Assembly (NCBI GenBank): GCA_002345845.1
Contig: DDWF01000196.1
Location: forward strand, 1-64,000
Direction of reading: 5' to 3'
Source of the DNA: Betaproteobacteria bacterium UBA2293
GTDB taxonomy: Bacteria > Pseudomonadota > Gammaproteobacteria > Burkholderiales > Rhodocyclaceae
DNA length: 64,000 nt
The number at the start of each line of letters is the position of its first letter. Positions within the stretch are counted from its first letter, which is position 1. A program made the translations under genes and the position numbers. Positions 8,620 through 48,654 of this stretch are shown here, piece after piece. Under the pieces are notes generated by a model that had not been told where the DNA came from, searched no databases, and saw nothing but the letters and a program-made list of their open reading frames with translations.

Positions 8620-8635
8620 TGAGCCGTTTGGCTCA
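8620..8635. promoter_or_regulatory. 16-bp palindromic operator
   Basis: TGAGCCGTTTGGCTCA, an almost perfect inverted repeat. Its centre is 55 bp upstream of the centre of the proposed -10 of the 8514 gene, which puts it near -65. Similar elements precede four other operons at the same distance (see 14460, 17065, 46048, 48639). Confidence 0.7.
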
Positions 8636-8643
8636 GTGCTTGA

Positions 8644-8952
8644 TCAGCGGCTGCAACATGGATCGTCGAGACGCGCCCGGGCCTCGGCGCACAGTTGCCA
8701 CAGGCGGCGCAGTCCGGCCAGACCGCTGTCCTCGCTACTGGCCGCTTCCAGGCGATAGAGCAGAGTCAGCAGGGTGCGCAGTTCCTGGCGCAGGTCGTCG
8801 GTGGTCGTGCCGTCCGGCGCATCGATGAGCTGGCGCAGGGCGCGACGGTCGCCGGAATCGACGCCGCAGAGTGCCGCCAGTCCGGCGATCAGCTGACGCA
8901 AGTGCTCGAGTTCATCGGCCGGAGGGGGCGGGGAGGTAGGCATCGGTGGCAT
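8644..8952 (-). CDS. Small hypothetical protein
   Basis: About 102 residues from the ATG at 8952. Upstream in-frame starts (8979, 8997, 9033) cannot be excluded, and none has a good ribosome-binding site. The body is helical and rich in leucine and arginine (for example LEHLRQLIAGLAALCG and LRTLLTLLYRLEAASSEDSG), with no signal peptide and no family I recognise. It lies between the PEP-CTERM operon promoter and the divergent secretin promoter. It could be a small cytoplasmic accessory protein. Codon use is compatible with a real gene, but the evidence is modest. Confidence 0.5.
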   Translation of the reverse strand: MPPMPTSPPPPADELEHLRQLIAGLAALCGVDSGDRRALRQLIDAPDGTTTDDLRQELRTLLTLLYRLEAASSEDSGLAGLRRLWQLCAEARARLDDPCCSR

Positions 8953-9039
8953 CCGCAGTATCGAATGGCAAAACAGCATGCCGGGTACGTGTTGCATGTT
9001 GATGAAGAAAGGATGGCGGAATGTCCAAAGCATGGCCAA

Positions 9040-9073
9040 GCTTCACGAATCTGTAACGCGGCCTTCCTAGCAT
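9040..9073 (+). promoter_or_regulatory. PHO-box promoter of the secretin operon
   Basis: GCTTCAC, 4 bp, CTGTAAC, 10 bp, -10 TAGCAT. Half-site length, spacer and distance to the -10 all follow the PhoB rule. The block from CTGTAAC to about 7 bp downstream is nearly identical to the promoter at 39035-39068, which drives the other half of the secretion machine. Confidence 0.75.
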
Positions 9074-9106
9074 GGGCGTCTTACCTCAGATAGTCCGCCC
9101 CCGCCG

Positions 9107-11368
9107 ATGCCCCTCCGCTTTCGCCGCCATGTGCTGTTGCTGACCCTCCCCGCTTTTCTCGGCGCCTGTGCACATCCGGCTTTTCGCGATGGCTTGCGCG
9201 CCCTGAGCGAGGGACGTACCACCGACGGCATCACCTCGCTGGAAAAGGCGGTGCACGACGAACCGCGCAATCCCGAGATGAAGACAGAGCTGATTCGTCA
9301 GCGCGAAACGGCGATCGCCGCAGCGCTCGACGAGGCGGGGCGCCACCGTGCCGCTGAACAGCCGGCCGAGGCCGAGGCTGCCTATCGCCGGGCGCTCGTC
9401 CTCGAACCGGCCAATACCCGGGCCCGCCAGGGCCTGGAGCAGATCGTCGTCGATCGTCGCCATGCCGGCATGTTGCAACAGGCGGAACAATTGCTGGGGA
9501 AAGGCGATCTGCTCGGCGCCGAACGCCTGGTGCGCATCGTTCGTGCCCAGGACCCGCGCCACGGGACGGCACGCCGCCTGCAGGGGGCGATCGATGCCCA
9601 CCGTGCCGCCGAAGAGAATCCGCCGGCCAGTCAGGCCATCCGCGCCGCACTGGCCAAGCCGGTGGTCCTCGAATTCCGCGATGCCTCCCTGAAAAGCGTC
9701 TTCGAGGTGCTTTCCCGCTCGTCGGGACTCAATTTCGTCTTCGACAAGGACGTCAAGGGCGACACCAAGGTCACCCTGTTCGTGCGCAACAGCCCGCTCG
9801 AGGACATCCTGCAGCTGATCCTCAGCACCAACCAACTGGCCCGTCGCCAACTCAACGACAACAGCTTCCTCATCTACCCGGCGACGGCGGCCAAGGCCAA
9901 GGAGTATCAGGAGTTGGTGGTGCGCAGCTTCTATCTGACCAATACCGATGTGAAACAGGCGCAGAGCCTGGTCAAGACGGTGGCCAAGAGCAAGGACGTG
10001 TTCGCTGATGAGAAGCTGAACCTGCTGATCGTCAAGGACACGCCGGACGCCATCCGCCTGGTCGAACGCCTGATCGATTCCCTTGATCTGGCCGAGCCCG
10101 AGGTCATGCTGGAGGTCGAGGTGCTGGAAATCACGCGCAGCCGCCTCAACGAATTCGGTGTGGACTGGCCGGATTCGATCGGGCTCGGGCGGCTGACCAC
10201 CGATACGACGACGACCACCACTTCCGCGGGAACCACTGTGGCCGCGGGTACGACCTTCGGTGGCACGTTGACCGCCGGCTATGTAAATGCCGAGAAGCTT
10301 CGCGACCTGACCACCTTCGTCGCCAACCCGGCCTTCCAGCTCAACATCAAGGGCCAGAACGCCGACACCAACGTCCTGGCCAACCCGCGCATCCGTGTCA
10401 AGAACCGGGAAAAGGCGAAGATCCACATCGGCGACAAGTTGCCGGTCTTTACCACGACCTCGACGGCCAATGTCGGCGTCTCGGCCAATGTCACCTATCT
10501 CGATGTCGGTCTCAAGCTCGAGGTCGAGCCCAATGTCACTCTTGATGACGAAGTGTCGATCAAGGTCGCGCTGGAAGTCAGCAGCATCTCGCGCGAGATC
10601 GCCGGACCGTCGAGCTCGCTCGCCTACCAGGTCGGCACGCGCAGCGCCAACACCTCGCTGCGCCTGCGCAATGGCGAAACCCAGGTGCTCGCCGGCCTGA
10701 TCAGTGACGAGGAGCGCAAGAGCACCAGTCATGTCCCGGGCCTCGGCGAAATTCCGCTGATCGGCCGCGCCTTCGGCAGTCATCGCGATACCTCGGTGAA
10801 GACCGAGATCGTGCTGCTGATCACGCCGCGCATCGTGCGCAACATCCATCGTCCGGAAATGAGCCAGCCGGCACTCGCTTCCGGTACCGAAATGGCTGTC
10901 GGTGCGTCGCCGCTGAGCGTGCGCACGCCGGGGCCGAAATCCCTTGCCCTGGCTTCGCGTGGCGGCGCCGGTCGGGTGCCAGCGGCGGCCGAAGAGGCCG
11001 TGCCGGCTGCCGTCCCGGTTGCTGCCGCGGCCGGCGGCGCGGCGGTGCCGGTCGTCCAGCTGGCGGCGCCAGGCGAAGTGGCGGCGGGTGCCGAGGTCGA
11101 TATTGGCGTTGCCGTCCCCGGCCTCTCCGGGCCGATCCTGGTCGAACTGGTTTACGACACCCAGTTGCTGGAGGCCGTGCAGCCGCCATCTTCATCGGCC
11201 GGGCGGGTGATCGTTCGCGTCGATCAGGGCCAGACCGTGCTGCGGATGAAGGCACGTCCCGGTTCCAGCGGCGATACCAACATCGACGTCGTCGGCGCCA
11301 TGGTCGACGGGGGCGAGGCGCTGGCCGGCGCCACCGCCTCCCGTCCGTTACGTATCGTCGGGCCATGA
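9107..11368 (+). CDS. Type II secretion secretin, lipoprotein with C-terminal cohesin-like domain
   Basis: Outer-membrane channel of a type II-like secretion machine, 753 residues. The N-terminus carries a lipoprotein signal (LGAC at 18-21). Residues about 30-170 form a TPR-like helical region. N-domains and the secretin beta-barrel follow, with the hallmark VPGLGEIPLIG near 542 and LITPRIVRN after it. The last hundred residues (about 645-750) form a cohesin-like beta domain, an addition found in some MshL/OxpC-like secretins but not in classical GspD. It overlaps the next pseudopilin gene by 4 bp (ATGA). The gene set resembles a reduced type II/MSHA-like system, and its PHO promoter recalls the phosphate-regulated Hxc system of Pseudomonas. 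Confidence 0.9.
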   Translation: MPLRFRRHVLLLTLPAFLGACAHPAFRDGLRALSEGRTTDGITSLEKAVHDEPRNPEMKTELIRQRETAIAAALDEAGRHRAAEQPAEAEAAYRRALVLEPANTRARQGLEQIVVDRRHAGMLQQAEQLLGKGDLLGAERLVRIVRAQDPRHGTARRLQGAIDAHRAAEENPPASQAIRAALAKPVVLEFRDASLKSVFEVLSRSSGLNFVFDKDVKGDTKVTLFVRNSPLEDILQLILSTNQLARRQLNDNSFLIYPATAAKAKEYQELVVRSFYLTNTDVKQAQSLVKTVAKSKDVFADEKLNLLIVKDTPDAIRLVERLIDSLDLAEPEVMLEVEVLEITRSRLNEFGVDWPDSIGLGRLTTDTTTTTTSAGTTVAAGTTFGGTLTAGYVNAEKLRDLTTFVANPAFQLNIKGQNADTNVLANPRIRVKNREKAKIHIGDKLPVFTTTSTANVGVSANVTYLDVGLKLEVEPNVTLDDEVSIKVALEVSSISREIAGPSSSLAYQVGTRSANTSLRLRNGETQVLAGLISDEERKSTSHVPGLGEIPLIGRAFGSHRDTSVKTEIVLLITPRIVRNIHRPEMSQPALASGTEMAVGASPLSVRTPGPKSLALASRGGAGRVPAAAEEAVPAAVPVAAAAGGAAVPVVQLAAPGEVAAGAEVDIGVAVPGLSGPILVELVYDTQLLEAVQPPSSSAGRVIVRVDQGQTVLRMKARPGSSGDTNIDVVGAMVDGGEALAGATASRPLRIVGP

Positions 11369-11844
11369 GGCAAGGGCGGCGGCAAGGTTTCACCCTGGTC
11401 GAACTGGTGGTTACCGTCGCCATCGTCGGCATCCTGGCACTGGCCGTCACGCCGCTGGCCGAAATGAGCGCCCGCCGGCACAAGGAATCCGAGCTGCGTG
11501 CCGCCCTGCGCGAGCTTCGTGGCGCCCTCGATGCCTACCGGCGGGCGGTCGACGAAGGCAAGGTCGAGCGCAAGGCCGATGAATCCGGCTATCCGCGCCG
11601 CCTGGAAGATTTGGTGAGCGGCGTGGACAACCGCCTGGAACCGGGCAAGGGGAAACTCTACTTCCTGCGCCGCCTGCCGCGCGATCCCTTCGTCGCCGAT
11701 GCCGCCCTGGCCGCCGCAGAAACCTGGGGCAAGCGCAGTTATGACAGCCCGCCCGATGCGCCGCGCGAGGGCTCCGATGTTTTCGACGTCTACTCGCTGG
11801 CGCCCGGCAGCGGGCTCAACGGCGTCGCCTACAGGGAGTGGTGA
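11365..11844 (+). CDS. Type II secretion pseudopilin
   Basis: 159 residues. A short basic leader MRQGRRQG precedes the type III prepilin signal FTLVELVVTVAIVGIL, with the conserved glutamate at +5, cleaved by a prepilin peptidase not in this window. The soluble part is G-like (YPRRLEDLVSG, LRRLPRDPF), which suggests a GspG/GspH-like subunit of the pseudopilus. Start overlaps the secretin stop, so translation is coupled. Confidence 0.88.
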   Translation: MRQGRRQGFTLVELVVTVAIVGILALAVTPLAEMSARRHKESELRAALRELRGALDAYRRAVDEGKVERKADESGYPRRLEDLVSGVDNRLEPGKGKLYFLRRLPRDPFVADAALAAAETWGKRSYDSPPDAPREGSDVFDVYSLAPGSGLNGVAYREW

Positions 11845-11847
11845 GCG

Positions 11848-12222
11848 ATGCGCGGCCGCGGCTTCACACTGATCGAACTGCTTGTCGTCATGGCCGTCAT
11901 CGCCACCCTGCTGACCATTGCCGTGCCCCGCTACTTCGATCATATCGACCGGGCGCGCGAGGCGACGCTGCGGACCACGCTGGCCACCCTGCGCGACGCC
12001 CTCGACAAGTACCGGGCCGATAGCGGGCGCTATCCGGAAACGCTCGATGAACTGGTGCGCAAGAACTACCTGCGGCGGGTGCCGCTTGATCCATTGACCG
12101 ACAGCGCCGAGACCTGGGTGCTGGTGCCGGCACCCGAGGGTAACGGCGTTGCGGGCGCCTGGGACGTGCGCAGCGGTGCCGAGGGCAGCGGCCGCGATGG
12201 CAGCGACTTTGCCGCCTGGTAA
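11848..12222 (+). CDS. Type II secretion pseudopilin, GspG-like
   Basis: 124 residues: leader MRGRG, then FTLIELLVVMAVIATLLTIA with Glu at +5, followed by a GspG-like globular part (ALDKYRADSGRYPETLDELV, RRVPLDPLT). The start lies 4 bp after the preceding stop. The next gene begins inside its 3' end. Together with its neighbours it gives three pseudopilins in tandem next to the secretin. Confidence 0.88.
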   Translation: MRGRGFTLIELLVVMAVIATLLTIAVPRYFDHIDRAREATLRTTLATLRDALDKYRADSGRYPETLDELVRKNYLRRVPLDPLTDSAETWVLVPAPEGNGVAGAWDVRSGAEGSGRDGSDFAAW

Positions 12223-12724: not shown

Positions 12725-12747
12725 CGGAATTGTCGTTTGTCATCGAA

Positions 12748-12781: not shown

Positions 12782-12824
12782 CGCCACTCTTCTCGGGCAT
12801 CGCCCGTTCCGGATCCTCCAAGCC

Positions 12825-13613: not shown

Positions 13614-13625
13614 GGCGGCGTGGCG

Positions 13626-14393
13626 ATGGATAGCGTGATCACGCTCAGCGCGGTCGAACTGGAACGCCTGCTGATCACGCTGGAGTCTTCGCAACAAGTC
13701 CATCGCCGGCACCAGTTCTTCCTGTGGACGCAGGGCGCGTTGCAGGGCTTTCTGCCGCACGACATGCTGGTTTTCGGCTACGGCGCCTATGGCGCGCCGA
13801 CCTTTCGCAGCGAAGTCCTGGCCCGGGCCAATACGCTCGAAGACCTGGCGCTGCAGGGCGAACTGCGCCGCCTCGTCGACCTGATCGTCGACCGCTGGCT
13901 CGAAGGCAACTATCAGCCGCTCACTGTCATCCCCAGTGTCGACGGGCGTGGTTGTCCGGCCGGCCAGCTGCTCGCTCGCCTCGGCCTTGGCCATGCGCTG
14001 GCGCATGGCACCCGCGAGTTCTTCGGTGACTGTTCCGGTTTTTTCATCTTCCTGCGCATGCCGGAGGTGCCGGGGCGGCGGCACAGCTACTTCATCGACA
14101 TGTTGATGCCCTACCTGCATACCGTGCTCCACCGCATGCTGGCCGAGGAAAGGCTCAGCCAGGAGTGTGCGCCGCGCTCGGTGCTGCGCCTGAGCGCCCG
14201 CGAGTCGCAGGTCATCGGGCTGGTGCGCGACGGCAAGACCAACCAGCAGATCGCCCAGGCGCTCGAACTGAGTCCGCTGACGGTCAAGAACCATGTCCAG
14301 AACATCCTGCGCAAGCTGGAAGTGGCCAATCGCGCCCAGGCCGTCGCCAAGGCCGTCAAGGCACGCCTGATTGGCGATCCCGGCGCTTCCTGA
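13626..14393 (+). CDS. epsA: LuxR-family PEP-CTERM-associated regulator EpsA
   Basis: 255 residues. The N-terminal part (SAVELERLLITLESSQQVHRR, HQFFLWTQGALQGFLPHD) is typical of the EpsA regulator found with PEP-CTERM/exosortase loci; the C-terminus (about 190-250) is a LuxR-type helix-turn-helix (LSARESQVIGLVRDGKTNQ, LSPLTVKNHVQNILRKL). ATG 13626 has GAGG 10 bp upstream; GTG 13620 is an alternative. No acyl-homoserine lactone pocket or phosphoacceptor domain is evident, so its signal is unknown. It is the only regulator in the window apart from the PhoB-like protein and lies next to the tandem palindromes at 14438-14475, for which it is the best candidate binder. That link is inference. Confidence 0.88.
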   Translation: MDSVITLSAVELERLLITLESSQQVHRRHQFFLWTQGALQGFLPHDMLVFGYGAYGAPTFRSEVLARANTLEDLALQGELRRLVDLIVDRWLEGNYQPLTVIPSVDGRGCPAGQLLARLGLGHALAHGTREFFGDCSGFFIFLRMPEVPGRRHSYFIDMLMPYLHTVLHRMLAEERLSQECAPRSVLRLSARESQVIGLVRDGKTNQQIAQALELSPLTVKNHVQNILRKLEVANRAQAVAKAVKARLIGDPGAS

Positions 14394-14437
14394 AGACGCC
14401 GCGTATTACGCAATGTGACAGACAGGGGCGCTGCGCC

Positions 14438-14453
14438 TGAGCCGATCGGCCCG
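14438..14453. promoter_or_regulatory. Palindromic operator, distal tandem copy
   Basis: TGAGCCGATCGGCCCG; the core GCCGATCGGC is a perfect palindrome. It is the same sequence as the copy 22 bp downstream over 15 bases from 14437, so two dimers could bind the same face of the helix. Confidence 0.65.
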
Positions 14454-14459
14454 GGTGAC

Positions 14460-14475
14460 TGAGCCGATCGGCCTG
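14460..14475. promoter_or_regulatory. Palindromic operator, proximal tandem copy
   Basis: TGAGCCGATCGGCCTG; centre 56 bp upstream of the centre of the proposed -10 at 14521-14526, matching the geometry of the other palindromes in the window. Confidence 0.65.
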
Positions 14476-14488: not shown

Positions 14489-14526
14489 CTGTCACCCTAC
14501 CGGGCGTCATCTCAGCCACTCAATCT
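14489..14526 (+). promoter_or_regulatory. Partial PHO-type promoter of the PEP-CTERM/PstS-like operon
   Basis: Right half-site GCGTCAT (14504-14510) lies 10 bp before CAATCT (14521-14526). A good left half-site, CTGTCAC at 14489, is 4 bp farther than expected. The arrangement fits the regulon only partly. Confidence 0.45.
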
Positions 14527-14678
14527 GTCACTCGTCGACATGGCGGCCTTGGGGCGCTGATCGGGTGAAAAATATTCCGCCGTTCTGGTGAGCGGACACC
14601 CAAAACAGCCCCTGGCGAGCATGTGGCACCCGTCCATTCCGGACCTGTGTTCAATTTTTTCGATAGGGGTTTACACAT

Positions 14679-15473
14679 ATGAAGTTTTCACTCAAGAAGC
14701 TTGCTGCCGTCGCCGTTCTGGCCGCTGCCGCGACCGGCGCCAGCGCTGCAATCGACTCCGGCGCCCAGGGCAATGGCGAACTGTTCTTCAATGCCTGGGA
14801 TGCCAACACCTCCTTCACCTTCGACCTGAATGTCAGCATCAATGACTTCGATCTGGCCATGGCAGCTCCTGGCCTTCTCAACCAATCCTGGGGTGCCGCT
14901 CAGGGCTTTCTGCCGGCCTTCAGTGACTGGCTGGCGACGACCAACGCAGCTGAACTGCAGTGGAACATCCTGTCCACCGATACCTCGGGTCAGCGTCGTA
15001 TGCTGACGACCGTTGGCCACGAAAACGAATTGCCGGCCACCAATAACGATGCCACATCACTGCGCACTGGCGCTGGCTCGATTCGCGACTTCGCCACGCA
15101 AGCCAGTCTGGTCATGGTTGGCGATGTGGCCATCACCAATTCCAACGCCGCGCCGTCCTACGCCGGCGTGCAGGGTCCGTATGTCTTCGGTGGTTTCACC
15201 TTCGATTCGACCGGTAATCTGGCGGCCAACAGCTACGCCAATGGCCTGGTCTTCCAGAAGACGACTGCGAACGCCACCGGTACCGCCCTTGGCATCAACA
15301 CCGCCTATGTCGATGAAACCTTGGCGGTCAAGAGCTGGCTAGATGCCGACGGTCTCCATATCGCCGCAGTCGATGCCATTCCGGCCGTCCCCGAGCCTTC
15401 CGAAACCGCCATGCTGCTGGCCGGTCTCGGCCTGATCGGTTTCGCCGCCCGCCGCAAGGCCCGCCGCGCCTAA
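14679..15473 (+). CDS. PEP-CTERM protein
   Basis: 264 residues: signal peptide (1-23, MKFSLKKLAAVAVLAAAATG), a body rich in Asn, Thr and Ala without a catalytic motif I recognise, and the C-terminal VPEPSETAMLLAGLGLIG signal with a basic tail. Exported by Sec and probably processed by an exosortase encoded elsewhere. First gene of a two-gene unit with the PstS-like protein; the two are separated by a stable hairpin and likely have unequal expression. It follows epsA and its tandem operators. Function unknown; an abundant surface or matrix protein is plausible from its first-gene position. Confidence 0.87.
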   Translation: MKFSLKKLAAVAVLAAAATGASAAIDSGAQGNGELFFNAWDANTSFTFDLNVSINDFDLAMAAPGLLNQSWGAAQGFLPAFSDWLATTNAAELQWNILSTDTSGQRRMLTTVGHENELPATNNDATSLRTGAGSIRDFATQASLVMVGDVAITNSNAAPSYAGVQGPYVFGGFTFDSTGNLAANSYANGLVFQKTTANATGTALGINTAYVDETLAVKSWLDADGLHIAAVDAIPAVPEPSETAMLLAGLGLIGFAARRKARRA

Positions 15474-15481: not shown

Positions 15482-15509
15482 GGCCACCGGTGCCTTCGCC
15501 CCGGTGGCC
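15482..15509 (+). other. Intercistronic hairpin
   Basis: Nine-bp stem GGCCACCGG with CCGGTGGCC and a 10-nt loop, 8 bp after the PEP-CTERM stop and 24 bp before the next start. No T-run follows. It may protect the upstream mRNA from 3' decay. Confidence 0.5.
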
Positions 15510-15533
15510 GTCATTCCCTTTCAGGAGAATCCC

Positions 15534-16970
15534 ATGCAAGTCAAGAAACTTGTTTCCCTGTGCGCCATCGCCTGCGCCGCCATGGCTGGTAATGCCCACG
15601 CCGCGATGAGCGCTGGCGAACAGGCCATCGTCAACGATGCCGTCGCCAATGGTCGCGTCATCTTCATTTCCGGCGCTTCCGCCACGCAAAAGGGCTTTAC
15701 CGGCATCATCGCCTCGATGTTCACCGGCACGCCGATCCGCTTCGCCAACACCACCGCTTCCTCGAAGGACTTCGAGGCGGTCGCCGGCGTGCTGGCCACG
15801 GGTGCCGGCCCGTGGTCGGGCCAGAACGTCATCATCATCGACCGCGTCAAGGGCGGTTCGGTCTGGGGCGTCGACCCGGTTGCCCGTGCCCAGTCCATCG
15901 AGTCGTTGAAGGTCACTTCGGCCACCTGCGGCGCCACTGGTTCCGGCACCGCCGCCAGCCCCTATGTCTGTGATGCCACGCCGGTCGGTGAATACATGGT
16001 GCCGGATGCTGGTATCTCCGATGTCGCCCCGGCCCTGTTCCAGTCGCCGATCAATACCGAAGGCGAAATTGCCGCACCGTCGCTGACCGCTGCCGAAATG
16101 GCCCTGCTCAAGGCCTACCCGATCTACTCGCTGGCCTTCGGCGTACCGGTTACCAGCAACGTGCCGATGATCGATCTGAACAAGACCGCCGTTTCCGCCA
16201 TCATGGCGGGCGGTGTCGGTACCTGGGACGCCGTCGATCCGACGCTGGACGCTGACGACATCGTCGTCTGCCGCCGCGTGCCGGGTTCCGGTACCCAGGC
16301 CGTCGATAACCTGTATTTCGGCAATTTCCCCTGCGGCGTGGCCAACGAACCGGCCGACCGCGACGCCTCGGAAGCTTGGGATCCGGTTGCCCGCAAGTAC
16401 ACCGTTACCCCCGGTACCGGCGGTCTGGTGGTCATCGAGAACTCGACCTCGGGTGATGTCCGCAACTGTCTGGACAAGGCGGTCACCGGCGGTACCTACA
16501 ACACCAAGGATCGCAGCGGCGCTGCCGTCACCGTCGATTTCGGCGCTGGCGGCCACAAGGCCGTTGGTGTCATGTCCATGGACAGCCTGAAGGATTCCAA
16601 GTCAACCGGCAACTGGCAGTTCCGTTCGCTCGACGGCGCTGGTACCTACACCTGGGACAACACCGCCAACCCGCCGGTCGCCTCCGGTGATGGCATCTTC
16701 CCGACCCTGGAAAACCTGGTCAATGGTAACTGGGACCTGCAGGGCTGGATCTCCTTCAACATCCCGACCCGTACCACTGGCAACAAACTGCAAGTGCTCA
16801 ACAAGTTCCTGACCGAAGCCCGCAAGCCGTCCTTGCTGGCCAGCATCAGTGACCTGAAGAATGTTGCTGGCGCCATCCCGGGCAATCCGGGCGTTACCGC
16901 CGGTGCGCAGACGCTGCGGGTCAAGTACGTTCAAAACAATCAGTGCGGACCGCTGAATCGCGAGTACTGA
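15534..16970 (+). CDS. PstS-like exported substrate-binding protein
   Basis: 478 residues from the ATG at 15534, preceded by CAGGAGAA; signal peptide (1-24). After it comes GRVIFISGASATQKGF, resembling the glycine/serine/threonine-rich oxyanion-binding start of PstS-type proteins, and later VCRRVPGSGTQA, like the second anion-binding segment of PstS (GSGT). This supports a periplasmic-binding-protein fold for phosphate or a similar anion. It is longer than PstS (about 340 residues) and no ABC permease or ATPase is adjacent. It ends at a strong terminator. In Pseudomonas, phosphate islands include DING/PstS-like secreted proteins, so binding or surface phosphatase activity are both possible. 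Confidence 0.72.
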   Translation: MQVKKLVSLCAIACAAMAGNAHAAMSAGEQAIVNDAVANGRVIFISGASATQKGFTGIIASMFTGTPIRFANTTASSKDFEAVAGVLATGAGPWSGQNVIIIDRVKGGSVWGVDPVARAQSIESLKVTSATCGATGSGTAASPYVCDATPVGEYMVPDAGISDVAPALFQSPINTEGEIAAPSLTAAEMALLKAYPIYSLAFGVPVTSNVPMIDLNKTAVSAIMAGGVGTWDAVDPTLDADDIVVCRRVPGSGTQAVDNLYFGNFPCGVANEPADRDASEAWDPVARKYTVTPGTGGLVVIENSTSGDVRNCLDKAVTGGTYNTKDRSGAAVTVDFGAGGHKAVGVMSMDSLKDSKSTGNWQFRSLDGAGTYTWDNTANPPVASGDGIFPTLENLVNGNWDLQGWISFNIPTRTTGNKLQVLNKFLTEARKPSLLASISDLKNVAGAIPGNPGVTAGAQTLRVKYVQNNQCGPLNREY

Positions 16971-17064: not shown

Positions 17065-17080
17065 TAGTCCGATCGGCGCA
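17065..17080. promoter_or_regulatory. Degenerate palindromic operator of the TPS operon
   Basis: TAGTCCGATCGGCGCA matches the consensus at 10 of the 14 fixed bases (the central CCG and CGG are intact) and its centre is exactly 55 bp upstream of the centre of the -10 at 17125-17130. The position, more than the sequence, supports it. Confidence 0.5.
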
Positions 17081-17096: not shown

Positions 17097-17130
17097 AAGT
17101 CACGGATGGGTCATGTCGTCTGCCCATAAT
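17097..17130 (+). promoter_or_regulatory. PHO-box promoter of the TPS/TonB operon
   Basis: AAGTCAC, 4 bp, GGGTCAT, 10 bp, -10 CATAAT. Full agreement with the PHO spacing. Transcription would begin at about 17137, so the mRNA has almost no leader before ATG 17140, and the ATG at 17113 cannot be used. Confidence 0.7.
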
Positions 17131-17139
17131 CCGCCGGCC

Positions 17140-18717
17140 ATGCCTATTCCCCGACTCTTCCTGCGGACGGCCGTTGTCGTCGCCGCGCTGCTTCCCGCCT
17201 TTGCCGCCGCCGCCGACAGCTTCGAGCTGCTCGAGTTCGCCGTCGAGGGCAATTCCGTGCTGCCGGCCATCGAGATCGAACGCGCCGTCTATCCCTCCCT
17301 CGGCCCCGGGCGCACGCTGGCCGATATTGAAAAGGCGCGGGCGGCGCTGGAGGCTGCTTACCAGGCCGCCGGTTACCTGTCGGTGTCGGTGCTGCTGCCC
17401 AGTCAGCCGCTGGGCGGGGTCATCCGCCTGGTCGTCGTCGAAGGCGAGGTCGAACGCCTGAAAGTCAGCGGCAATCGCTATACCTCGCGCAACCAGTTGC
17501 GCAGCGAAGTGCCGGAACTGGCGCCGGGTTCGGTGCCGCATTTCCCGACCATGCAGGCCGAACTGGCGCAGGCCGGGCGCTCGCCGGACCGGCGGGTGAC
17601 GCCGTTGCTCCGCCCCGGTGCCCGGCCGGGCACCATGGAGGTGGAACTGGCGGTGGAGGACGAACTGCCGGTGCACGGTTCGCTGGAGCTGAACAACCGG
17701 CGCAGCCCGGATACGGAACGGCTGCGCCTGGAAGCCGGTTTGCGCTACACCAACCTGTTCCAGAAGCAGCATTCGGCCGGCCTCAATTACGTCGTCGCCC
17801 CCGAGGATCCGGAGCAGGTCAGCGTCCTCGCCGCCTTTTACAGCTTGCCGCTGGGGCCGCGCACGTCGTTGTCGGCCTTCGCTCAGTATTCGAACAGCAA
17901 CATCGCCGCGGCGCTCGGTTCCAACGTCGTCGGCAAGGGCACGACGCTGGGCGCCCGCTTCAGCCTCAGCCTGCCGCAGGCCGGCGGCAGGCCGGGTTTC
18001 TTCCATTCCCTGTCGCTCGGCGCCGACTTCAAGAATCTCGACGAGACGCAGAACGCGCTCGGCGCCGACAGCAAGGACACGCCGCTGCGCTACATGCCGC
18101 TGGTCGCCCAGTACACCTTCGGCAACTACGGCGAGTCGGCGGAGCTGAGCGGCAATCTCGGGCTGGTCGTCAATACCGGCAGCCATTCACGGAAGATCGA
18201 TTGCCAGGGCTATCGTCTCGACCAGTTCGAGTGCCGACGGGCCAATGCCCGGCCGGGCTTCTCGGCGGTGCGCGGTGATGTCGGCTATACCGGCCGCTGG
18301 TCGGGCTGGGAGGGCTTTGCCCGGCTCGATTTCCAGCTGGCCGGCCAGGCCCTGGTTTCACCGGAGCAGATGCTGCTCGGTGGTGTGGACAGCGTGCGCG
18401 GCTACCTCGCCGGCGAGGCGGCCGGCGATGCCGGCTGGCGCCTGCGTGGCGAAGTGCGCACGCCGGGCCTCTTCGATATTGCGGGCAGCGGCCTGCGCGC
18501 CCTGGTCTTCGTCGATCACGGCCAGGTCTGGCTGAACGATGCGCTGCCCGGCCAGGACGAGCGCTTCACGCTGGCCAGTGCCGGTGTCGGCTTGAGCCTG
18601 AAGGGACGGCCGGGCGGCCCGTTGTTCGCCCTCGATCTGGCGCAGACCCTGCGCGATGGACCACGGACCGGACGCGGCGCCCAGCGCGCGCATTTCCGCC
18701 TGGGTTATGAATTCTGA
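17140..18717 (+). CDS. Two-partner secretion transporter (TpsB, ShlB/FhaC family)
   Basis: Outer-membrane beta-barrel that exports the adjacent TpsA. 525 residues from ATG 17140, where the signal peptide starts (MPIPRLFLRTAVVVAALLPA); ATG 17113 would add nine residues and would lie inside the promoter. POTRA-type domains (about 28-190; FELLEFAVEGNSVLPAIEIE and RLVVVEGEVERLKVSG) are followed by a 16-strand-type barrel ending in a C-terminal aromatic (LGYEF). The conserved VRGY loop motif is present (GGVDSVRGYLAGE). The TpsA gene starts 31 bp downstream. The transcript appears nearly leaderless if the promoter call is right. Confidence 0.92.
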   Translation: MPIPRLFLRTAVVVAALLPAFAAAADSFELLEFAVEGNSVLPAIEIERAVYPSLGPGRTLADIEKARAALEAAYQAAGYLSVSVLLPSQPLGGVIRLVVVEGEVERLKVSGNRYTSRNQLRSEVPELAPGSVPHFPTMQAELAQAGRSPDRRVTPLLRPGARPGTMEVELAVEDELPVHGSLELNNRRSPDTERLRLEAGLRYTNLFQKQHSAGLNYVVAPEDPEQVSVLAAFYSLPLGPRTSLSAFAQYSNSNIAAALGSNVVGKGTTLGARFSLSLPQAGGRPGFFHSLSLGADFKNLDETQNALGADSKDTPLRYMPLVAQYTFGNYGESAELSGNLGLVVNTGSHSRKIDCQGYRLDQFECRRANARPGFSAVRGDVGYTGRWSGWEGFARLDFQLAGQALVSPEQMLLGGVDSVRGYLAGEAAGDAGWRLRGEVRTPGLFDIAGSGLRALVFVDHGQVWLNDALPGQDERFTLASAGVGLSLKGRPGGPLFALDLAQTLRDGPRTGRGAQRAHFRLGYEF

Positions 18718-21700: not shown

Positions 21701-24700
21701 GCCAGACGGCCAGCGAAGCTGAACGCCTTGCAGCTTATACGCAGGCGCAGATCGCCTTCGTTCGCGGTGCCAGCAATAGCGCCGCCGGTCTACAGGCCGG
21801 CGATGCCGCCGGTCCGCGCCTGGAGCTGTCGCAATCGCTGGTGGACAACGGTTTCAGCCGTTTCGACCTGCGCAGCGACGGGCGTATCGAGATTGCCGCC
21901 GATGTCGCGCTCAACCTGCAGCCGGGCGGCAGCTTCAAGGCGGCCGGGCGGCAGCTCGTCGTCGCTGGTGACATCGTTACGCCGGGCGGCAGCATCGAGC
22001 TGACCACGCGCGACATGAGCCTGGCGCCGGGGCTATTCCCGACCGTCGCCGATGCGTCGTTTTCGACCCTGATCCTGACCGACGGCGCCGTGCTGTCGAC
22101 CGCCGGCCGCTGGGCCAACGACGTGCTCGACCGCAGTCTCGCCAGCCGAAAGTTGCTGGCACTCGATGGCGGTTCGGTGAAGCTCGATTCGGCTTACGAC
22201 ATCGATCTTCGGGCCGGTAGCCGCATCGACGTTTCCGGCGGCGCCCAACTCACGGCCGATGGCAAACTGCTGGCCGGTGATGCCGGCAAAATCACACTGA
22301 CCACCGGTGGTATCAAGGCCGCCGGCGCTTTCGCTGCCACCGAGGATCTCGATCGGCGCGATGCCAGTCTCTTCATCGACGGTACGCTGGCCGGCCAAGC
22401 ACTGGGCAGCGGCGGCAGCCTGGAGATCAATACCTCGCAGGTCAACGTCGGCAGCGGTACTGTCGTCGACGGGCGCAGCCTGGATCGGGCCGCGCGTCTG
22501 GCCAACGGCCAGGTCGGCATTGCCCTGGCGGCGGATTTCTTTGATCGCGGCGGCTTCTTCGATTTCAAGCTGGTCGGTCGCGACGGTGTGCACATTGCCG
22601 CCGGCACGCGCATCGCGCCGCAGCCATTGAGCTGGACGCTGGACGGCGTCAGCGACTACCGGATGCGGGCGAGCGGCACCGCGCTCGGCGCCTTTGCCCG
22701 CACCCAGGTACTCCATCCGGACCGGCGCAGCGCCGCCACCAGCCTCGCCTTTGCCACGCGCAGCCTGAACTACGGCGAGCTGACGGTGGGCGAGGGAGCA
22801 ACGCTGGCTGTCGCACCGGGCGGCAGCATCGCCCTCGAGTCCTGGGGACAACTGACGGTGCTCGGCACGCTGCAGGCTAGCGGCGGCACCATCCGCCTGA
22901 GCCGGCCGGCGAATCGGATCGATGAGCCCTACAACCGCATACCCATCGAGTACAGTGAAGGCCGCCAGGCCCAGTCCATCTACCTGGGCGAGCAGGCGCG
23001 CCTGCTAGCCGGCGGCACCACGGTGCTCGCGGCGGATACCCGGCGGGCGCTGGAGGCCGGCATTCCCGCGGCGGTCCTACGTGCGGGGCAGCGCTACAAG
23101 GGCGAAGTGCTGGCCGGCGGCACGGTGGATATCGATGCCGGTCTCGGTTACCTGATCACTCGCGAAGGTTCGCTGATCGACGTCTCCGGCGCCACGGACA
23201 GCCTCAACGTTGCCGCCGGCAGTGGCAACGGTACCCTGGCCTATCCGCAGGCGACGCTCGGCAGCGCCGGTGGTACGGTCAGCCTGGCCGCCCGTGAGGG
23301 CATGATTCTCGACGGCGAGTATGCCGCCGCCGGGCGCCATGGCGCACCGGCTGGTGCGCTGGCCGTGCATCTCTACGAAATGGCCAGCAACGCCACCTGG
23401 GAGAGCCTCGGCCTGCCCGGCTCGATGCAGGGGCCGCGCAGCCTGACCTTGTTCCAGTCGCTGGCGGGTCATCCGGCCGCCTGGACGCTGTCTGCCAGCG
23501 AGACGGCGCGTTATCTGGCCGGCGAGCATGTTCTCGCCTCCACCGACTATAACGGTCGGGCGGCGCTCGACCTGGCGCGGGCCGCTGATGGTGGTTTCGG
23601 TTCCTGGTATTTGCGCAGCCGCGACGAGATTGTTTTCTCCGGCAACATTGTCGGCGGTGTCGCCAACCAGTTGCAGATCAGTGCCCCGGTACTGCGGGCG
23701 GCCGACGCAGCCACGCGGATTGACTTGCAGGCAGCAGCCATCCAGCTCGGCAACGCCGCGCCGAGCGGTGCACCGGCGGCTACGGCGATGGCCGGAGGGG
23801 CGACGGCCCGGTTCACGGCACGCGATATCGGTGTCATCGGCAATTTCAGCTGGAACGGCTTTGCCACGACGCAATTGGTCAGCAGCGGCGAGATCCACTT
23901 CGACAGCACCGCCAATTCGGCACCCAACCGCAGTGGTGGTCGCCTGTTCAGCGGCCAGATGACGGCCGCCGGCCGTCTTGAACTGGCGGCCGCCCGACTT
24001 TCGCCATCGACCTACAGTGATTACCGGATTGATCTTTCCAGCGATGCCGGCGGCGAAATCGTCATTTCCCGCCCGGCTGAGGCCAGCGCCGCCGAGTCGC
24101 TGGCCGTTGGTGGCCGCCTGGAGTTTGCCGCGCCCTCGATCACCCACGCCGGTACCGTCACGGCGCCGCTGGGCGAGATCGTCTTCAGCGCGCCGGGCGG
24201 GCGGGTCGAACTGACGGCTGACAGTGTCACCTCGGTGGCCGGCGGCCGTCTCGCTCTGCTCGGCGAAACCGATCAGTCCGGACGCTACTGGAAATATGAG
24301 TCCGCTTACTGGGATCCGCAGACCGGTACGCTGCGCAGCGCCATTTACGACGTCGAGCGGGCCCCGGCCAAGGCCATCGTCGTTGATGCCGCCGACAGCG
24401 TCGTCGCGAGTGGGGCGAAGCTCGACCTGTCCGGTGGCGGCGACGCCCTGGCCAGTGAGTTCACTCCCGGCCCGGGCGGCAAGACAGACATCCTGGCGGC
24501 CAGCGACGGTGCCGCGCCGCAGGTCTTCGCCGTACTGCCGGACTGGCAGGGCGCCTTCGCTCCGGTCGATAGCCATGCCATGGCCTGGTACAACGTGTCG
24601 GGCGGTCGCCAGGTCGGCGGCAACTGGCGTTACAGCCCAATTCCCAGCCTGAAGGCGGGCGACCAGGTCTATCTGGCCGCCAACGGCAGTGGTCTGGCGG

Positions 24701-44715: not shown

Positions 44716-44733
44716 GTGATCGCCGGGATGCGA

Positions 44734-44767
44734 TTGTCATCGTTTCTTCACCGCCGGGTAACACGCT
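44734..44767 (+). promoter_or_regulatory. Weak PHO-like promoter of the small protein gene
   Basis: TTGTCAT, 4 bp, TCTTCAC, 10 bp, CACGCT. Spacing fits, but the -10 is poor, so this is a low-confidence site. Confidence 0.35.
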
Positions 44768-44806
44768 CCCCTTACATTGACAGTCCAGCTTATCGGGAGA
44801 GTCACC

Positions 44807-45091: not shown

Positions 45092-45108
45092 TCGTAGGGC
45101 TAGCAAAC

Positions 45109-45143
45109 GACGAAAGGCCCGCCAATCGGCGGGCCTTTCGTTT
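45109..45143. terminator. Bidirectional rho-independent terminator
   Basis: A 14-bp stem (ACGAAAGGCCCGCC with its complement) flanked by A and T runs, between the plus-strand small gene and the minus-strand PEP-CTERM gene. It can serve both. Confidence 0.9.
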
Positions 45144-45162
45144 AGTCCTGCGGGAGCGCGAA

Positions 45163-45936
45163 TCAGGCGCGGCGGCGCAGGCTCATGGCACCGATCATGC
45201 CCAGGCCGGCCAGCAGCATGGCCAGCGACTTCGGTTCCGGAACGGCGGCCAGGATCAGGTCGCCATCGGCGACATAGAGCAGGTTGCCGGCAGTGCTGAC
45301 GCCTTGCACGCTGTTGATCGTGCTGAGGAAGGTGGCATCGAACGGTGCACCCAGACGCAGCGAAAAGGTGCTGTTGCCGCCGGCGATGGTGGCCGGAGAA
45401 AACACGCTGCTGTCGTAGCCGGTGACTGTCAGGTCGAGCGTCGCGCCACCGAACTGCATGGTGTTGCCGACATAGCCGAGGCTGCCGCCGCCACTGCTGA
45501 TGCTGCCTTCCATGATCTTCACGCCGTCCATAAAGCCGCTGTCGGTGCCGAAGTTGAGATTCGGCGTGGTGTCCAGGTAGAGGGCGAAGCTGCCGCTGTT
45601 GACGCCGAAGGTTTCACCAAAGGCACTGACCGAGGTACGGCTGCTGCTGAAGTCGGCGACGATAGTGAGTTCGTAATTGTTGGCCGCCAGGCCGGGGCTT
45701 TGAACACCCTCGCCGTTGAGCAGGTGGGCGGTGACGGAGGACTGATAGTAGCCGTGGGCATCGGTGGCGTTTTGCGGGTCGAGCAGCAGGACGCCAGCCG
45801 AGGACAGGTCGTAGGTGTTGAAGGGACCGACCGTCTCCACACCGTAATCGGCGGTGCCGATCCAGTTGGGGGCGGCCAGCGCCGGTGCTGCGGCGAGCGC
45901 GGCAACGGTGGCTAGGGCGAAGTGAGTGATTTTCAT
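45163..45936 (-). CDS. PEP-CTERM protein
   Basis: 257 residues from ATG 45936, where the signal peptide MKITHFALATVAALAAAPAL begins; the 24 codons upstream were rejected because they overlap the promoter. Beta-rich body without recognised motif, and a C-terminal VPEPKSLAMLLAGLGMIG signal with basic tail. It is a single-gene unit between its promoter and the terminator at 45109-45143. Its promoter is the best example of a PHO box plus palindrome in this window. Confidence 0.85.
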   Translation of the reverse strand: MKITHFALATVAALAAAPALAAPNWIGTADYGVETVGPFNTYDLSSAGVLLLDPQNATDAHGYYQSSVTAHLLNGEGVQSPGLAANNYELTIVADFSSSRTSVSAFGETFGVNSGSFALYLDTTPNLNFGTDSGFMDGVKIMEGSISSGGGSLGYVGNTMQFGGATLDLTVTGYDSSVFSPATIAGGNSTFSLRLGAPFDATFLSTINSVQGVSTAGNLLYVADGDLILAAVPEPKSLAMLLAGLGMIGAMSLRRRA

Positions 45937-45997
45937 GGGGGTTCTCTTGGTTGTCGGGTTGCGGGGGCGGCGCCACAGGCGGGGCGCCAGCCTCACC

Positions 45998-46031
45998 AGA
46001 TTAGTCACCCAATGTTAGAAAACCGTGATGC
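45998..46031 (-). promoter_or_regulatory. PHO-box promoter of the PEP-CTERM gene at 45936
   Basis: Minus strand: GCATCAC, 4 bp, TTCTAAC, 10 bp, -10 TAATCT (46003-45998). Right half-site differs from CTGTAAC at two bases. Confidence 0.7.
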
Positions 46032-46632
46032 TGGAGCGATGATTTGCTGAGCCGTTCGGCTCATGCCGCTGCCATGCTGGCTGCCCGGTGAGCTGATGTC
46101 GGCTGGCGGCTTTTCCCGCCTGCCCTTGCAGGGTGGCCAGGTGGCGGAGCACGGCGGGTACGTAGGCCTGGGTTTCCGGATAGGGGGGGATTCCGCCGTG
46201 GCGGGTGACAGCACCTTCGCCGGCGTTATAGGCGGCGAGGGCCAGATCTTTCCGGGCGGGAAAACGGTCAATCAGGAAACGCAAATAACGGGTGCCGGCC
46301 TGCAGGTTGGCCTGTAGGTCATGGGGATCGTCGGTACCGAAGCGGCGGGCCGTGGCCGGCATCAGCTGCATCAGGCCGATGGCGCCGCGCGGCGAGACGG
46401 CATCCGCCCGGTAGCCCGACTCGACGGCGATCACGGCATGGACCAGGGCAGCATCGACACCCGCCTTGCGGGCGGCGGCGGCGATCTCGGCGGCATAGGG
46501 CAGGCTGGCCGCGGCCGGCGCCGTGGTGGCCAGCCGATAGGCAGGCGCATCGTCCAGTTGCAGGCGATAGGGCGAGGCCCCGGCGCTACCTGCCAGCAAC
46601 AGGCTGCAACAGAGCGCTATCAGGCGCGCCAT
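46015..46632 (-). CDS. Lytic transglycosylase
   Basis: 205 residues: signal peptide (1-19), then a lytic transglycosylase domain (about 55-170) with catalytic Glu in [17 protein letters not shown] and [14 protein letters not shown]. It is a paralogue of the enzyme at 38345. The last 35 or so residues are a low-complexity tail whose codons overlap the palindrome (46048-46063) and part of the PHO box of the downstream PEP-CTERM gene. Its start overlaps the VanZ-like gene by 13 bp, so it belongs to the 48504-46015 minus-strand unit. Confidence 0.87.
46048..46063. promoter_or_regulatory. Palindromic operator, best copy
   Basis: TGAGCCGTTCGGCTCA: both 7-bp arms match perfectly, with a 2-bp centre. 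Centre exactly 55 bp from the -10 centre of the downstream PEP-CTERM gene. It lies within the 3' end of the lytic transglycosylase gene. Confidence 0.75.
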
Positions 46633-46988
46633 GCCGGATTTCTGGCCAGGTGGCGGGTCAGCAATGGCCGGACCAGCAGCCCGAGAGCGATGCCCGCCAT
46701 ATCGGCCACGCCATCCTCCCAGGAGGGATCCCGGCCCGGTACCCAGAGCTGGTTCAGTTCGTCGGCGACGGCGACGCTCAGGCCGATGCCGATGATCACG
46801 GTCAGCGGCACGCGTGGCAGCGCCAGACGCAAGGCGACCGCCAGCAGGGCGAAGACACCGATGTGCGCCAGCTTGTCCCAGGGGGAGGCAACCAGACCGG
46901 CCGATGCTTCGGTGCTGCCGAAGCCAAAGAGCAGGGCGGAAATGCCGCTCAGGATCACCATGCCGAGCAGGCGCGGCTCAATAGGCAT
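46620..46988 (-). CDS. VanZ-like membrane protein
   Basis: 122 residues, about four TM helices, with the VanZ-type [20 protein letters not shown] and [20 protein letters not shown] signatures. VanZ family members are often encoded in exopolysaccharide loci; the molecular role is unclear. It overlaps both neighbours by 11-13 bp and so is translationally coupled to the sugar transferase. Confidence 0.8.
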
Positions 46989-48504
46989 GACGATCGCGGA
47001 CGACGACGGCGACCGTTTTGGCGATGATGTAGATGTCCAGGCCGAGCGACCAGTTGCGCAGATAATCGAGATCGAAGTCGATACGCGCCTTCATCTTGTC
47101 CAGCGTGTCGGTCTCGCCGCGCAGGCCGTTGATCTGCGCCCAGCCGGTGATGCCCGGCTTGACCTTGTGGCGGACCATGTAGCCCTTGATCAGCTTGCGG
47201 TACTGCTCGTTGTGGGCCACCGCATGCGGGCGCGGGCCGACGATGCTCATCCGTCCCTGCAGGACATTGACGAACTGAGGCAGTTCGTCAAGCGAGGTCT
47301 TGCGCAGGATGGCGCCCAAGCGGGTGATGCGCTGGTCACCCTGGCGCGCCTGGACGATGCTGGCGCCGTCTTCGCAGACGGTCATCGAACGGAACTTGTA
47401 GACCACGATTTCCTGGCCATCCAGCCCGTAACGGCGTTGCTTGAAGATCACCGGGCCGGGCGACGAGAGCTTGACGCCGATGGCCAGCAGCAGCAGCAGC
47501 GGCGAGATCAGGAGCAGGATCAGCGAGCCCAGGAGCAGGTCCTCGGTCCGCTTGATCAGGCCGTTGACGCCGGTGAACGGTGTCTCGCAGACGGAGACGA
47601 CCGGCATGTCGCAGACTGATTCCGTCCGGCTCTGGATCATGTCGGTGACGAACAGGTCGGGCACGAAGTAGATTGAGGCCGTGGTGTCGCGCAGATCGTC
47701 CAACAGGCGCAGGATGCGCGGCTGGGTGGCCATCGGCAGCGAAATGTAGATGTGGTTGATGCCCTGCGCCTTGGTGTACGCGGCCACCTCGTCGATGCGG
47801 CCGAGCAGTGGCCGCTCATGGCCGGCGGTGCGCAGGCGGTCGATGCTGCGATCGTCGAAGAAGCCGCGCATCTGGAGATCGGTGTAGGGACTGCAGACCA
47901 GGCGGTGGGCCAGTTCGGCGCCCTGTTCGTTCAAGCCGACGACAATCGCCCGCTTGCTGCCCTGAGCCTTCAACAGCCAGGGGGCGGCGAGGCGGAAAAC
48001 GGCATGGCCGGCGACCAGGGCCACGGGCGTGGCCCACAGCCAGGTGACGATGGCGTGTTGGGAGAACAGCCCCAGGCTGCGCGTGGCGTAGCCGAAGAAC
48101 AGGAAGAGCAGGGTGATGAACAGCCAGCTGCTCAGAATGCCCAGCAGACTGCGGCCGAAAGATTCCTGCAGGCGTGGATGGGCCGGAAAGGTGAGGGCGA
48201 AGGCCATCAGCGAGACGATCATGTAGGGCAGCGAAATCTCGCCATCCTCGAACAGGGCGATCAGCCAGATCGTGCTGGTCAGAATGGCCGGTTCCAGGAT
48301 GATCTCGACCAGGTTGATCAGGTTGTCGCGGCCGATGTGCAGGCTCGTCGCCCGGTGGAAACGCGACGGGCTGCCGATGTACTGGGCGGCTGCCGGTGGG
48401 GCGGTTTCGCAGAAGGAGGCGACGGTGTTCATGGGCAGTCGATTGAGGTGGTTAACAACCGGGGGCAAGGCGCTACCGGGAAACGCAGCGTATGCCGAAT
48501 TCAT
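46978..48504 (-). CDS. Undecaprenyl-phosphate glucose phosphotransferase
   Basis: 508 residues (ATG 48504; ATG 48432 possible, neither with a good ribosome-binding site). N-terminal half: TM helices and a CoA-binding-like domain (AIVVGLNEQGAELAHRL). C-terminal half: bacterial sugar transferase with RTEDLLLGSLILLLISPLLL, GPVIFKQRRYGLDGQEIVVY, KFRSMTV and DELPQFVNVLQGRMSIVGPR. It starts polysaccharide synthesis by moving a sugar phosphate to undecaprenyl phosphate. Together with the operon at 51738-64000 it would build the exopolysaccharide. Confidence 0.92.
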   Translation of the reverse strand: MNSAYAAFPGSALPPVVNHLNRLPMNTVASFCETAPPAAAQYIGSPSRFHRATSLHIGRDNLINLVEIILEPAILTSTIWLIALFEDGEISLPYMIVSLMAFALTFPAHPRLQESFGRSLLGILSSWLFITLLFLFFGYATRSLGLFSQHAIVTWLWATPVALVAGHAVFRLAAPWLLKAQGSKRAIVVGLNEQGAELAHRLVCSPYTDLQMRGFFDDRSIDRLRTAGHERPLLGRIDEVAAYTKAQGINHIYISLPMATQPRILRLLDDLRDTTASIYFVPDLFVTDMIQSRTESVCDMPVVSVCETPFTGVNGLIKRTEDLLLGSLILLLISPLLLLLAIGVKLSSPGPVIFKQRRYGLDGQEIVVYKFRSMTVCEDGASIVQARQGDQRITRLGAILRKTSLDELPQFVNVLQGRMSIVGPRPHAVAHNEQYRKLIKGYMVRHKVKPGITGWAQINGLRGETDTLDKMKARIDFDLDYLRNWSLGLDIYIIAKTVAVVVRDRHAY

Positions 48505-48638
48505 TAAATAAATATGACGGGCAGCGGCTCTCGGTAAATCGTAGCGGCCGTTTGCAGACAGTCACCATGGCCCATCCGTATTACGGCAATGCGAAAGAGA
48601 GTGTTTTTTTGTGCCGGATTACAAATGCTCGGTGCCAA

Positions 48639-48654
48639 TGAGCCGAACGGACTA
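48639..48654. promoter_or_regulatory. Palindromic operator with degenerate right arm
   Basis: TGAGCCGAACGGACTA. Left arm intact, right arm altered at its end; centre 56 bp upstream of the -10 centre of the PhoX-type gene. Confidence 0.6.

Follow-up and report, generated by a model that had tools for sequence, protein, structure and literature searches.

A 16-bp palindrome stands upstream of five promoters in the window, a 64,000-nucleotide stretch of Betaproteobacteria bacterium UBA2293 (assembly GCA_002345845.1, contig DDWF01000196.1), at a nearly constant distance from the -10 hexamer. In related genomes the palindrome keeps this spacing to a promoter core, precedes PEP-CTERM and phosphatase genes among others, is in part followed by an element like that of pstS promoters, and co-occurs with epsA, which encodes a LuxR/GerE-type regulator and in the window lies between two of the sites. 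As judged from these comparisons, the palindrome is probably the operator of EpsA, which would activate transcription together with PhoB from a position centred at -64.5 or alone from -43.5. This would supply a candidate regulator, its operator and a list of target genes for PEP-CTERM control.

Palindrome and promoter core in the window and its relatives

The original prediction had placed palindromes at 8620, 14460, 17065, 46048 and 48639, on both strands and 55, 56, 55, 55 and 56 bp, centre to centre, from the -10 hexamer named for each. We found all five at these coordinates and measured the same distances (Table 1). The motif given for them, TGAGCCG-NN-CGGCTCA, is present in the window but is only one branch of the broad consensus TAGTCCGWWCGGACTA. 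The 46048 copy, described as almost perfect, is in fact perfect, with 0 mismatches to TGAGCCGNNCGGCTCA; there is one mismatch at 8620, three each at 14460 and 48639, and four at 17065, rightly named the weakest, which is therefore absent from the list of our window scan for TGAGCCGNNCGGCTCA at up to three mismatches. An extra operator at 14438, not counted before, has two mismatches, lies 22 bp upstream of the 14460 copy and can be recognised in all 7 sequences aligned. The number of matches in the window is no better than chance (14 at up to three mismatches against 8.6 expected, with 14 reached in 6 of 100 shuffles), and the close relative G001 shows no excess either (22 matches at up to two mismatches against 19 for a reversed control). 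The case for the observation depends on relatives, the window's own palindrome count being ordinary.

The sites are kept in relatives, for example at loci L001, L002 and L045 and in G001. L001 is the nearest, with an EpsA identity of 98% and a DNA identity of about 94% over 11 kb. A protein search with EpsA gave 44 loci; in the last ten the match is confined to its DNA-binding end. In the window and in L001–L006 (7 of 7), one can recognise on the 3' side of epsA a pair of palindromes spaced 22 bp, then an element resembling GTCAT and a hexamer resembling a -10, and much of the DNA around these palindromes has diverged across the seven. Four loci (L064, L066, L067 and L069) carry the variant TAGTCCGNNCGG 3' of epsA, and its existence accounts for the odd site at 17065. 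The strict site occurs in 7 of 12 further genomes reached via EpsA loci, and perfect TAGTCCG dyads were found in loci titled Gallionellaceae, Methylophilaceae and Gammaproteobacteria. The wider consensus, aTAGTCCGWWCGGACTAt, is a 7-2-7 dyad.

The phasing had been called hard to get by chance, and a scan of relatives for the motif and its promoter distance had been suggested. Run on 95 palindromes picked by sequence only, outside the training set and read in both directions, this test bears the prediction out: the core GWMAY-N10-YANNNT is found 3, 14 and 2 times at offsets 44, 45 and 46, and 8 times in all over the 81 other offsets. A composite matrix, for which 20 palindromes and 12 cores served as training, picked up many sites beyond this set. 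A logo of 54 promoters, chosen for having a core and including training promoters, reads aTRRKCCGWWCGGMYYAt, a gap, then tGTMAY-N6-Y-N3-YANANT; the 7-2-7 inverted repeat is present in it, and no -35 hexamer appears in it. A simpler scan of 199 genomes for TGAGCCG..GTCAT gave mostly background, with no clear spacing peak among the matches listed; at least six matches fell at offset 45, and the two that we followed (G011 and G124) have a dyad-like right arm and lie before PEP-CTERM genes. FliA-type and extracytoplasmic function (ECF)-type readings of the core were dropped for wrong spacing.

Two arrangements stand somewhat apart. Seven loci (L174, L175, L250 and L255, also L015, L020 and L023) have two operator-plus-core promoters in tandem, 101–103 bp apart, ahead of one PEP-CTERM gene, and the first four also have, directly before the second operator, a string like GGACGGAATTCTTTACA that is similar to the published PrsR motif 1. 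The strict palindrome is also kept upstream of similar secreted proteins in L051 (G001) and L060 (G005), where neither of the layouts described below fits; models of 3HB-oligomer hydrolase and tannase match the protein in L051, in each case with a score under the cut-off.

Co-occurrence with EpsA and likeness to pstS promoters

The window protein scores over the curated cut-off for EpsA, the XrtB/PEP-CTERM-associated regulator (TIGR03020). Its surroundings include EpsL (TIGR03014) and a CAAX-related protease (TIGR03008); no exosortase was found among the 18 window proteins scanned with the curated family library. The predicted structure has a mean predicted local distance difference test score (pLDDT) of 85 and a predicted template modelling score (pTM) of 0.65, and resembles full-length LuxR receptors (Foldseek E 1.7e-10 to QscR, with a whole-chain template modelling (TM) score of 0.43 and a root-mean-square deviation of 14; the CepR2 ligand domain aligns at TM 0.63 by target length). 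A profile comparison matched CviR. This likeness to QscR/CviR-type receptors makes a small-molecule input to EpsA possible. Among 63 EpsA-like rows gathered by phmmer, in which two pairs represent the same locus, 61 share the recognition helix T[VI]KNH.

EpsA had been proposed as a possible binder of the palindrome, and its distribution supports this candidacy. We counted the strict palindrome TRRKCCGWWCGGMYYA in 199 genomes from the family of G001, of which 33 hold at least one site, and called EpsA at E up to 1e-20 in 37. Eighty sites fell in the 37 genomes with EpsA and 19 in the 162 without; by genome, 18 of 37 against 15 of 162 have the palindrome (Fisher p 2e-7, uncorrected for kinship). 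The reversed-pattern control showed no association (9 and 51 sites, p 0.53). PrsR, which together with sigma-54 forms the previously described route of PEP-CTERM control (PMC1569441), exceeds its cut-off in 95 of the 199 genomes. Genomes with EpsA and without PrsR hold 35 sites in 16 genomes, whereas those with PrsR and without EpsA hold 12 in 74. For at least one site the association has p 2e-7 with EpsA and 0.02 with PrsR, and for at least two sites 1e-7 and 0.42. The palindrome thus tracks EpsA far more closely than PrsR.

The original prediction overlooked a Pho-box-like element that fills the region from -38 to -23. In front of the -10 lies a second element, GTMAY, which is at times repeated 11 bp upstream: among the 54 core-selected promoters a repeat at exactly this distance is found in 7 (exact) or 16 (at most one mismatch), and no other upstream offset exceeds 1 and 5, respectively. 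Since a Pho box is built from a pair of 11-nt direct repeats, CTGTCAT in E. coli (PMC4415409), we compared the pstS promoters of ten genomes. All ten read GTCAT, GTCAC or TTCAC, N6, GTAAC or GTAAT, N10, then the -10, and none of these ten loci contains the strict palindrome. A matrix trained on these ten promoters alone places a box at offsets 33–35 for 32 of the 99 palindromes. Of the other offset triples, seven gave 0–2 and one, 23–25, a repeat unit away, gave 8; random positions gave a mean of 0.4 and a maximum of 2 in 200 runs. At the fixed offset the matrix found no box among the palindromes of genomes without EpsA (14 sites). Of 90 offsets scored at each window site, the matrix ranks the expected one highest at 8620, 14460 (with only 3.4 bits), 17065 and 46048; at 46048 it recovers ATCAC-N6-CTAAC-N10-TAATCT where a search for GTCAT had failed.

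A second layout appeared in G071 (L207, L227–L235), which has 20 strict palindromes and an EpsA homologue with 31% identity. Here the palindrome mostly abuts TTGNNN, with a 16–18 bp spacer to the -10, and many sites adjoin such a -35 ahead of PEP-CTERM genes; no Pho box was found at the expected offset in the G071 sites fetched. Across 218 oriented sites, TTG occurs at offset 16 in 26, and at any other offset in at most 10. Full promoters of this class II type number ten, nine of them in genomes with EpsA and all nine before PEP-CTERM genes (eight called by script, the ninth, L207, on a wider look); the tenth (L036) precedes another gene, and its genome is not known to encode EpsA. A 17-bp spacer puts the operator centre at -43.5, compared with -64.5 in the window type, a difference of 21 bp or two helical turns. 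Of 85 sites in EpsA-bearing sources, with those of the window counted in, 40 fit the first layout, 9 the second and none both, which makes 49 covered by one or the other; of 14 sites from genomes without EpsA, out of 19 such sites, none fits either. Five shifted controls gave 0, 8, 0, 1 and 1, where the 8 is an echo of the repeat.

Proposed mechanism and competing explanations

In the mechanism that we propose, an EpsA dimer would bind the 7-2-7 dyad centred near -64.5 and contact RNA polymerase from upstream (class I). The Pho box at -38 to -23, often only its promoter-proximal half, would replace the -35 element; PhoB bound there would supply the -35 contact, and EpsA would compensate for a weak distal half. 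With an EpsA operator and a Pho box at one promoter, two signals would be read, EpsA's own and phosphate starvation, to drive genes for surface proteins (PEP-CTERM, TpsB) and for phosphate scavenging. In other lineages this operator would act from -43.5, abutting a -35 hexamer with no Pho box (class II). With two alternative operator positions 21 bp apart, one class would leave room for a Pho box between the operator and the -10. An activator site near -65 on a fixed face, as first suggested, is supported by conservation, co-occurrence with epsA, the spacing statistics and the second layout at -43.5. On balance we slightly favour the further proposal of a large, hitherto undescribed EpsA and PhoB regulon, spread over Betaproteobacteria and a single genome with a gammaproteobacterial label, that would couple PEP-CTERM surface building to phosphate hunger, with EpsA, a quorum-receptor-like protein, acting jointly with PhoB at one promoter class. 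PEP-CTERM/exosortase proteins contribute to the formation of flocs and matrix by wastewater bacteria. If the proposal is true, matrix building is tied to phosphate scavenging, which could bear on phosphorus removal in sludge, and the two fixed operator positions offer a natural test of one activator at class I and class II promoters.

Several results weigh against this picture. All five window -10 hexamers are weak taken alone, the sites at 14460 and 48639, two of the five, have no distal Pho half, and at 48639 the pstS matrix scores best at another offset. GTMAY at downstream offsets reaches up to 2 exact copies and, at one offset, 9 of 54 at up to one mismatch. Kinship inflates the counts: the 32 phased sites collapse into 11 downstream-protein clusters and so are not 32 independent events. 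Neither layout fits 36 of the 85 sites, including those of PhoD, a purple acid phosphatase and a metallophosphatase. A composite score of at least 20 was found upstream of only 10 of 73 PEP-CTERM genes, sampled from nine genomes out of 664 matches in 20 genomes; two of the ten are training promoters and two were known beforehand from the TGAGCCG..GTCAT scan (controls: 0–3 for shifted spacings, 0 for reversed DNA). The strict match is absent in 19 of the 37 genomes with EpsA, though looser sites adjoin epsA in three (G180, G038 and G055), and G155, in which no EpsA was found at E 1e-20, has three strict palindromes (L205, L263 and L264), two of them before PEP-CTERM genes. The missing EpsA of G155 may reflect an incomplete assembly. 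PrsR too is associated with genomes holding at least one site, and sigma-54-like GG/GC elements (up to four mismatches) follow three of the five window promoters, at 14613-14628, 45960-45975 and 48717-48732, where chance gives 26% per 190 bp. After the 14460 promoter, the L002 copy of this element, TGGCGAACATGTTGCA, is by eye nearer the consensus than the window's.

These last points bear on whether the sites are the element of Haft et al. 2006, who described a cis element upstream of proteobacterial PEP-CTERM genes, the proteins PrsK, PrsR and PrsT, and a regulator tied by phylogenetic profile (PMC1569441). Our sites would then combine a PrsR enhancer with a sigma-54 promoter. The target genes are of the same class, and a pepA gene of Aquincola is RpoN-dependent according to the account in PMC9850573. 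Both systems show conserved DNA upstream of PEP-CTERM genes and a profile link to a regulator; here, however, a 16-bp dyad is combined with a Pho-type box and a -10, and the profile partner is EpsA. As set out in the relevant sections of the 2006 paper (PMC1569441), motif 1 ends in TTTACA and a -24/-12 sigma-54 motif follows about 63 nt later, whereas the palindrome has neither feature. TTTACA was found in one of the five window promoter regions, there just before the ATG. The GG/GC match at 46048 loses its spacing in G001 (by eye), and the association with PrsR vanishes at the threshold of at least two sites, where that with EpsA holds. We consider this identity very improbable. Haft et al. 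themselves expected further PEP-CTERM regulators and motifs to be discovered (PMC1569441).

A more serious alternative keeps the palindrome as the EpsA operator and has GTMAY read by another OmpR/PhoB-type regulator, or by RNA polymerase, rather than PhoB. OmpR-family regulators besides PhoB bind direct repeats, the proximal half stands alone in most composite promoters, and 16 of 54 promoters show the 11-bp repeat; yet all ten pstS promoters carry the full box in the same geometry, and the targets include several phosphatases. This remains an unlikely reading. That EpsA represses from the palindrome is more doubtful still: position alone argues for activation, and the tandem operators at 14438 and 14460 could serve a repressor, but the operator is fixed 44–46 from the core, or beside the -35 in the other layout, and is clear of the -10 in both. 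Positions near -64 and beside the -35 are usual for activators of the LuxR/NarL family. Chance palindromes with -10 hexamers chosen post hoc would explain the weak hexamers and the ordinary motif count of the window; since spacing and co-occurrence were tested on sites picked by palindrome alone, and 11 downstream-protein clusters are left after collapsing relatives, we find this explanation hardly credible.

The preferred reading, activation by EpsA with PhoB or alone, draws on parts of known kinds. EpsA resembles the GerE-type activators LuxR, TraR and NarL in its GerE domain, its proposed dyad operator and the placing of that operator near -43 and -64. The 7-2-7 form is shared by NarL sites, and we know of no LuxR/NarL-type operator that matches TAGTCCG-WW-CGGACTA. 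As for PhoB promoters, a box of the same kind stands at pstS in ten genomes, and part of the composite promoters show the 11-nt direct repeat; unlike PhoB promoters, the sites have often lost the distal repeat, and a putative EpsA operator lies mostly 29–30 nt upstream of the proximal half. Literature searches returned no paper with an operator or regulon for EpsA, none for PEP-CTERM, EpsA and LuxR together, and none linking exosortase and the Pho regulon or EpsA and Pho; PMC2907700 was listed for PEP-CTERM together with phosphate starvation and phosphatase. TAGTCCG 16-mers occur in none of the top-ranked papers, where any paper with one would stand. The original prediction knew of no published operator of the TGAGCCG sequence for PEP-CTERM genes; for TGAGCCG 16-mers the list, the best 20 of 1,823, is too short to tell. 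Within the reach of these searches the combination is new, and so is its placement at positions two turns apart.

Target genes and other features of the window

Family and domain scans of the window genes confirmed that each of the five sites precedes a PEP-CTERM, PhoX or two-partner secretion (TPS) operon (Table 1). Their description as surface-protein promoters holds for PEP-CTERM and TpsB; phosphatases are also among the targets. The likely 8620 operon combines PEP-CTERM proteins with a 5'-nucleotidase and a nuclease-like protein. Downstream of the 32 phased sites lie 14 proteins with PEP-CTERM-like ends (by eye), five TpsB, five of a PhoX cluster, three of the DUF2341 family and five others; the window phoX site is below the threshold used there. 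Operators of PhoD, the purple acid phosphatase and the metallophosphatase have a placed GTMAY half, but their -10 is below threshold. A phytase-like PEP-CTERM protein is preceded by an operator close to the strict form and accompanied by a core.

Table 1. Coordinates of promoter elements, genes and a leader in the window
Feature	Position	Strand	Basis and remarks
Nuclease/phosphatase (Exo_endo_phos) with lamin-tail and RTX domains	252..3317	-	domain scan
Choice-of-anchor I + PEP-CTERM protein	3332..4849	-	domain scan
PEP-CTERM protein, 169 aa	4918..5427	-	domain scan
5'-nucleotidase C-terminal domain + RTX repeats	5455..7737	-	domain scan
PEP-CTERM protein, first gene of likely five-gene operon	7795..8514	-	family/domain scans; operon from strand and small gaps
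-10-like TAGCCT	8570..8575	-	distance check
Pho-box-like CACAC-N6-GTCAT	8586..8601	-	proximal half 8586-8590; distal half 2 mismatches; matrix 9.9 bits, best of 90 offsets
Operator TGAGCCAAACGGCTCA	8620..8635	-	motif scan, distance check; same in L001
epsA, LuxR/GerE-type regulator, proposed palindrome binder	13620..14393	+	TIGR03020 192.3 bits (curated cut-off 170); GerE domain
Second, distal operator TGAGCCGATCGGCCCG	14438..14453	+	motif scan, alignment
Proximal operator TGAGCCGATCGGCCTG	14460..14475	+	alignment, distance check
Pho-box position	14495..14510	+	proximal half GTCAT 14506-14510 (L003 GTAAT, L006 TTCAC); distal half absent
-10-like CAATCT (L003-L006: TAAAGT)	14521..14526	+	alignment, distance check
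Conserved leader CGACATGGCGG...CGGGTGAAAA...GCGGACACCC, possible hairpin	14536..14601	+	alignment; arms GGGTG/CACCC could pair
PEP-CTERM protein	14679..15473	+	family/domain scans
PstS-like substrate-binding protein (weak match)	15504..16970	+	E 2.4e-5, far below curated cut-off; no Pfam family
Operator TAGTCCGATCGGCGCA	17065..17080	+	same place in L001; one change in L002
Pho-box-like GTCAC-N6-GTCAT	17099..17114	+	pstS matrix, distance check; two repeats exact
TpsB/ShlB outer-membrane protein	17113..18717	+	domain scan; likely start ATG at 17140
-10-like CATAAT	17125..17130	+	distance check
Giant TpsA adhesin, 3783 aa	18748..30099	+	first 1084 aa scanned
PepA-family PEP-CTERM protein	45163..45936	-	NF033554 163.5 bits (cut-off 80)
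-10 TAATCT	45998..46003	-	distance check
Pho-box-like ATCAC-N6-CTAAC	46014..46029	-	pstS matrix 18.7 bits, best of 90 offsets; one mismatch per half
Perfect operator TGAGCCGAACGGCTCA	46048..46063	-	same in L045; one mismatch in L046
Operator TGAGCCGAACGGACTA	48639..48654	+	same in G001 (L266)
Pho-box position	48674..48689	+	proximal half GTCAT 48685-48689 alone matches; matrix 2.6, weakest of five
-10-like CAGACT	48700..48705	+	distance check
PhoX alkaline phosphatase	48772..50946	+	PF05787 547 bits
PEP-CTERM protein directly 3' of phoX	51004..51663	+	domain scan

The leader downstream of the 14460 promoter shows strong conservation in the alignment, and the PEP-CTERM gene there possibly has a structured leader; no Rfam family reached its gathering score in the window for this leader (best E 0.0076, 19.5 against a cut-off of 50). 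Operators also precede tpsB homologues in L003, L004, L006 and L238. In all six tpsB promoters read (window 17125-17142, L002, L003, L004, L006 and L238) the start codon lies 9 bp after the -10, so the tpsB mRNA may be nearly leaderless. A two-mismatch palindrome at 22898-22913, within the giant tpsA reading frame, is probably a chance match. On the minus strand at 185-200 there is a weak composite site, TAGTTCTATCGGACCA, with GTCAT 44 bp further on, toward the left edge of the window.

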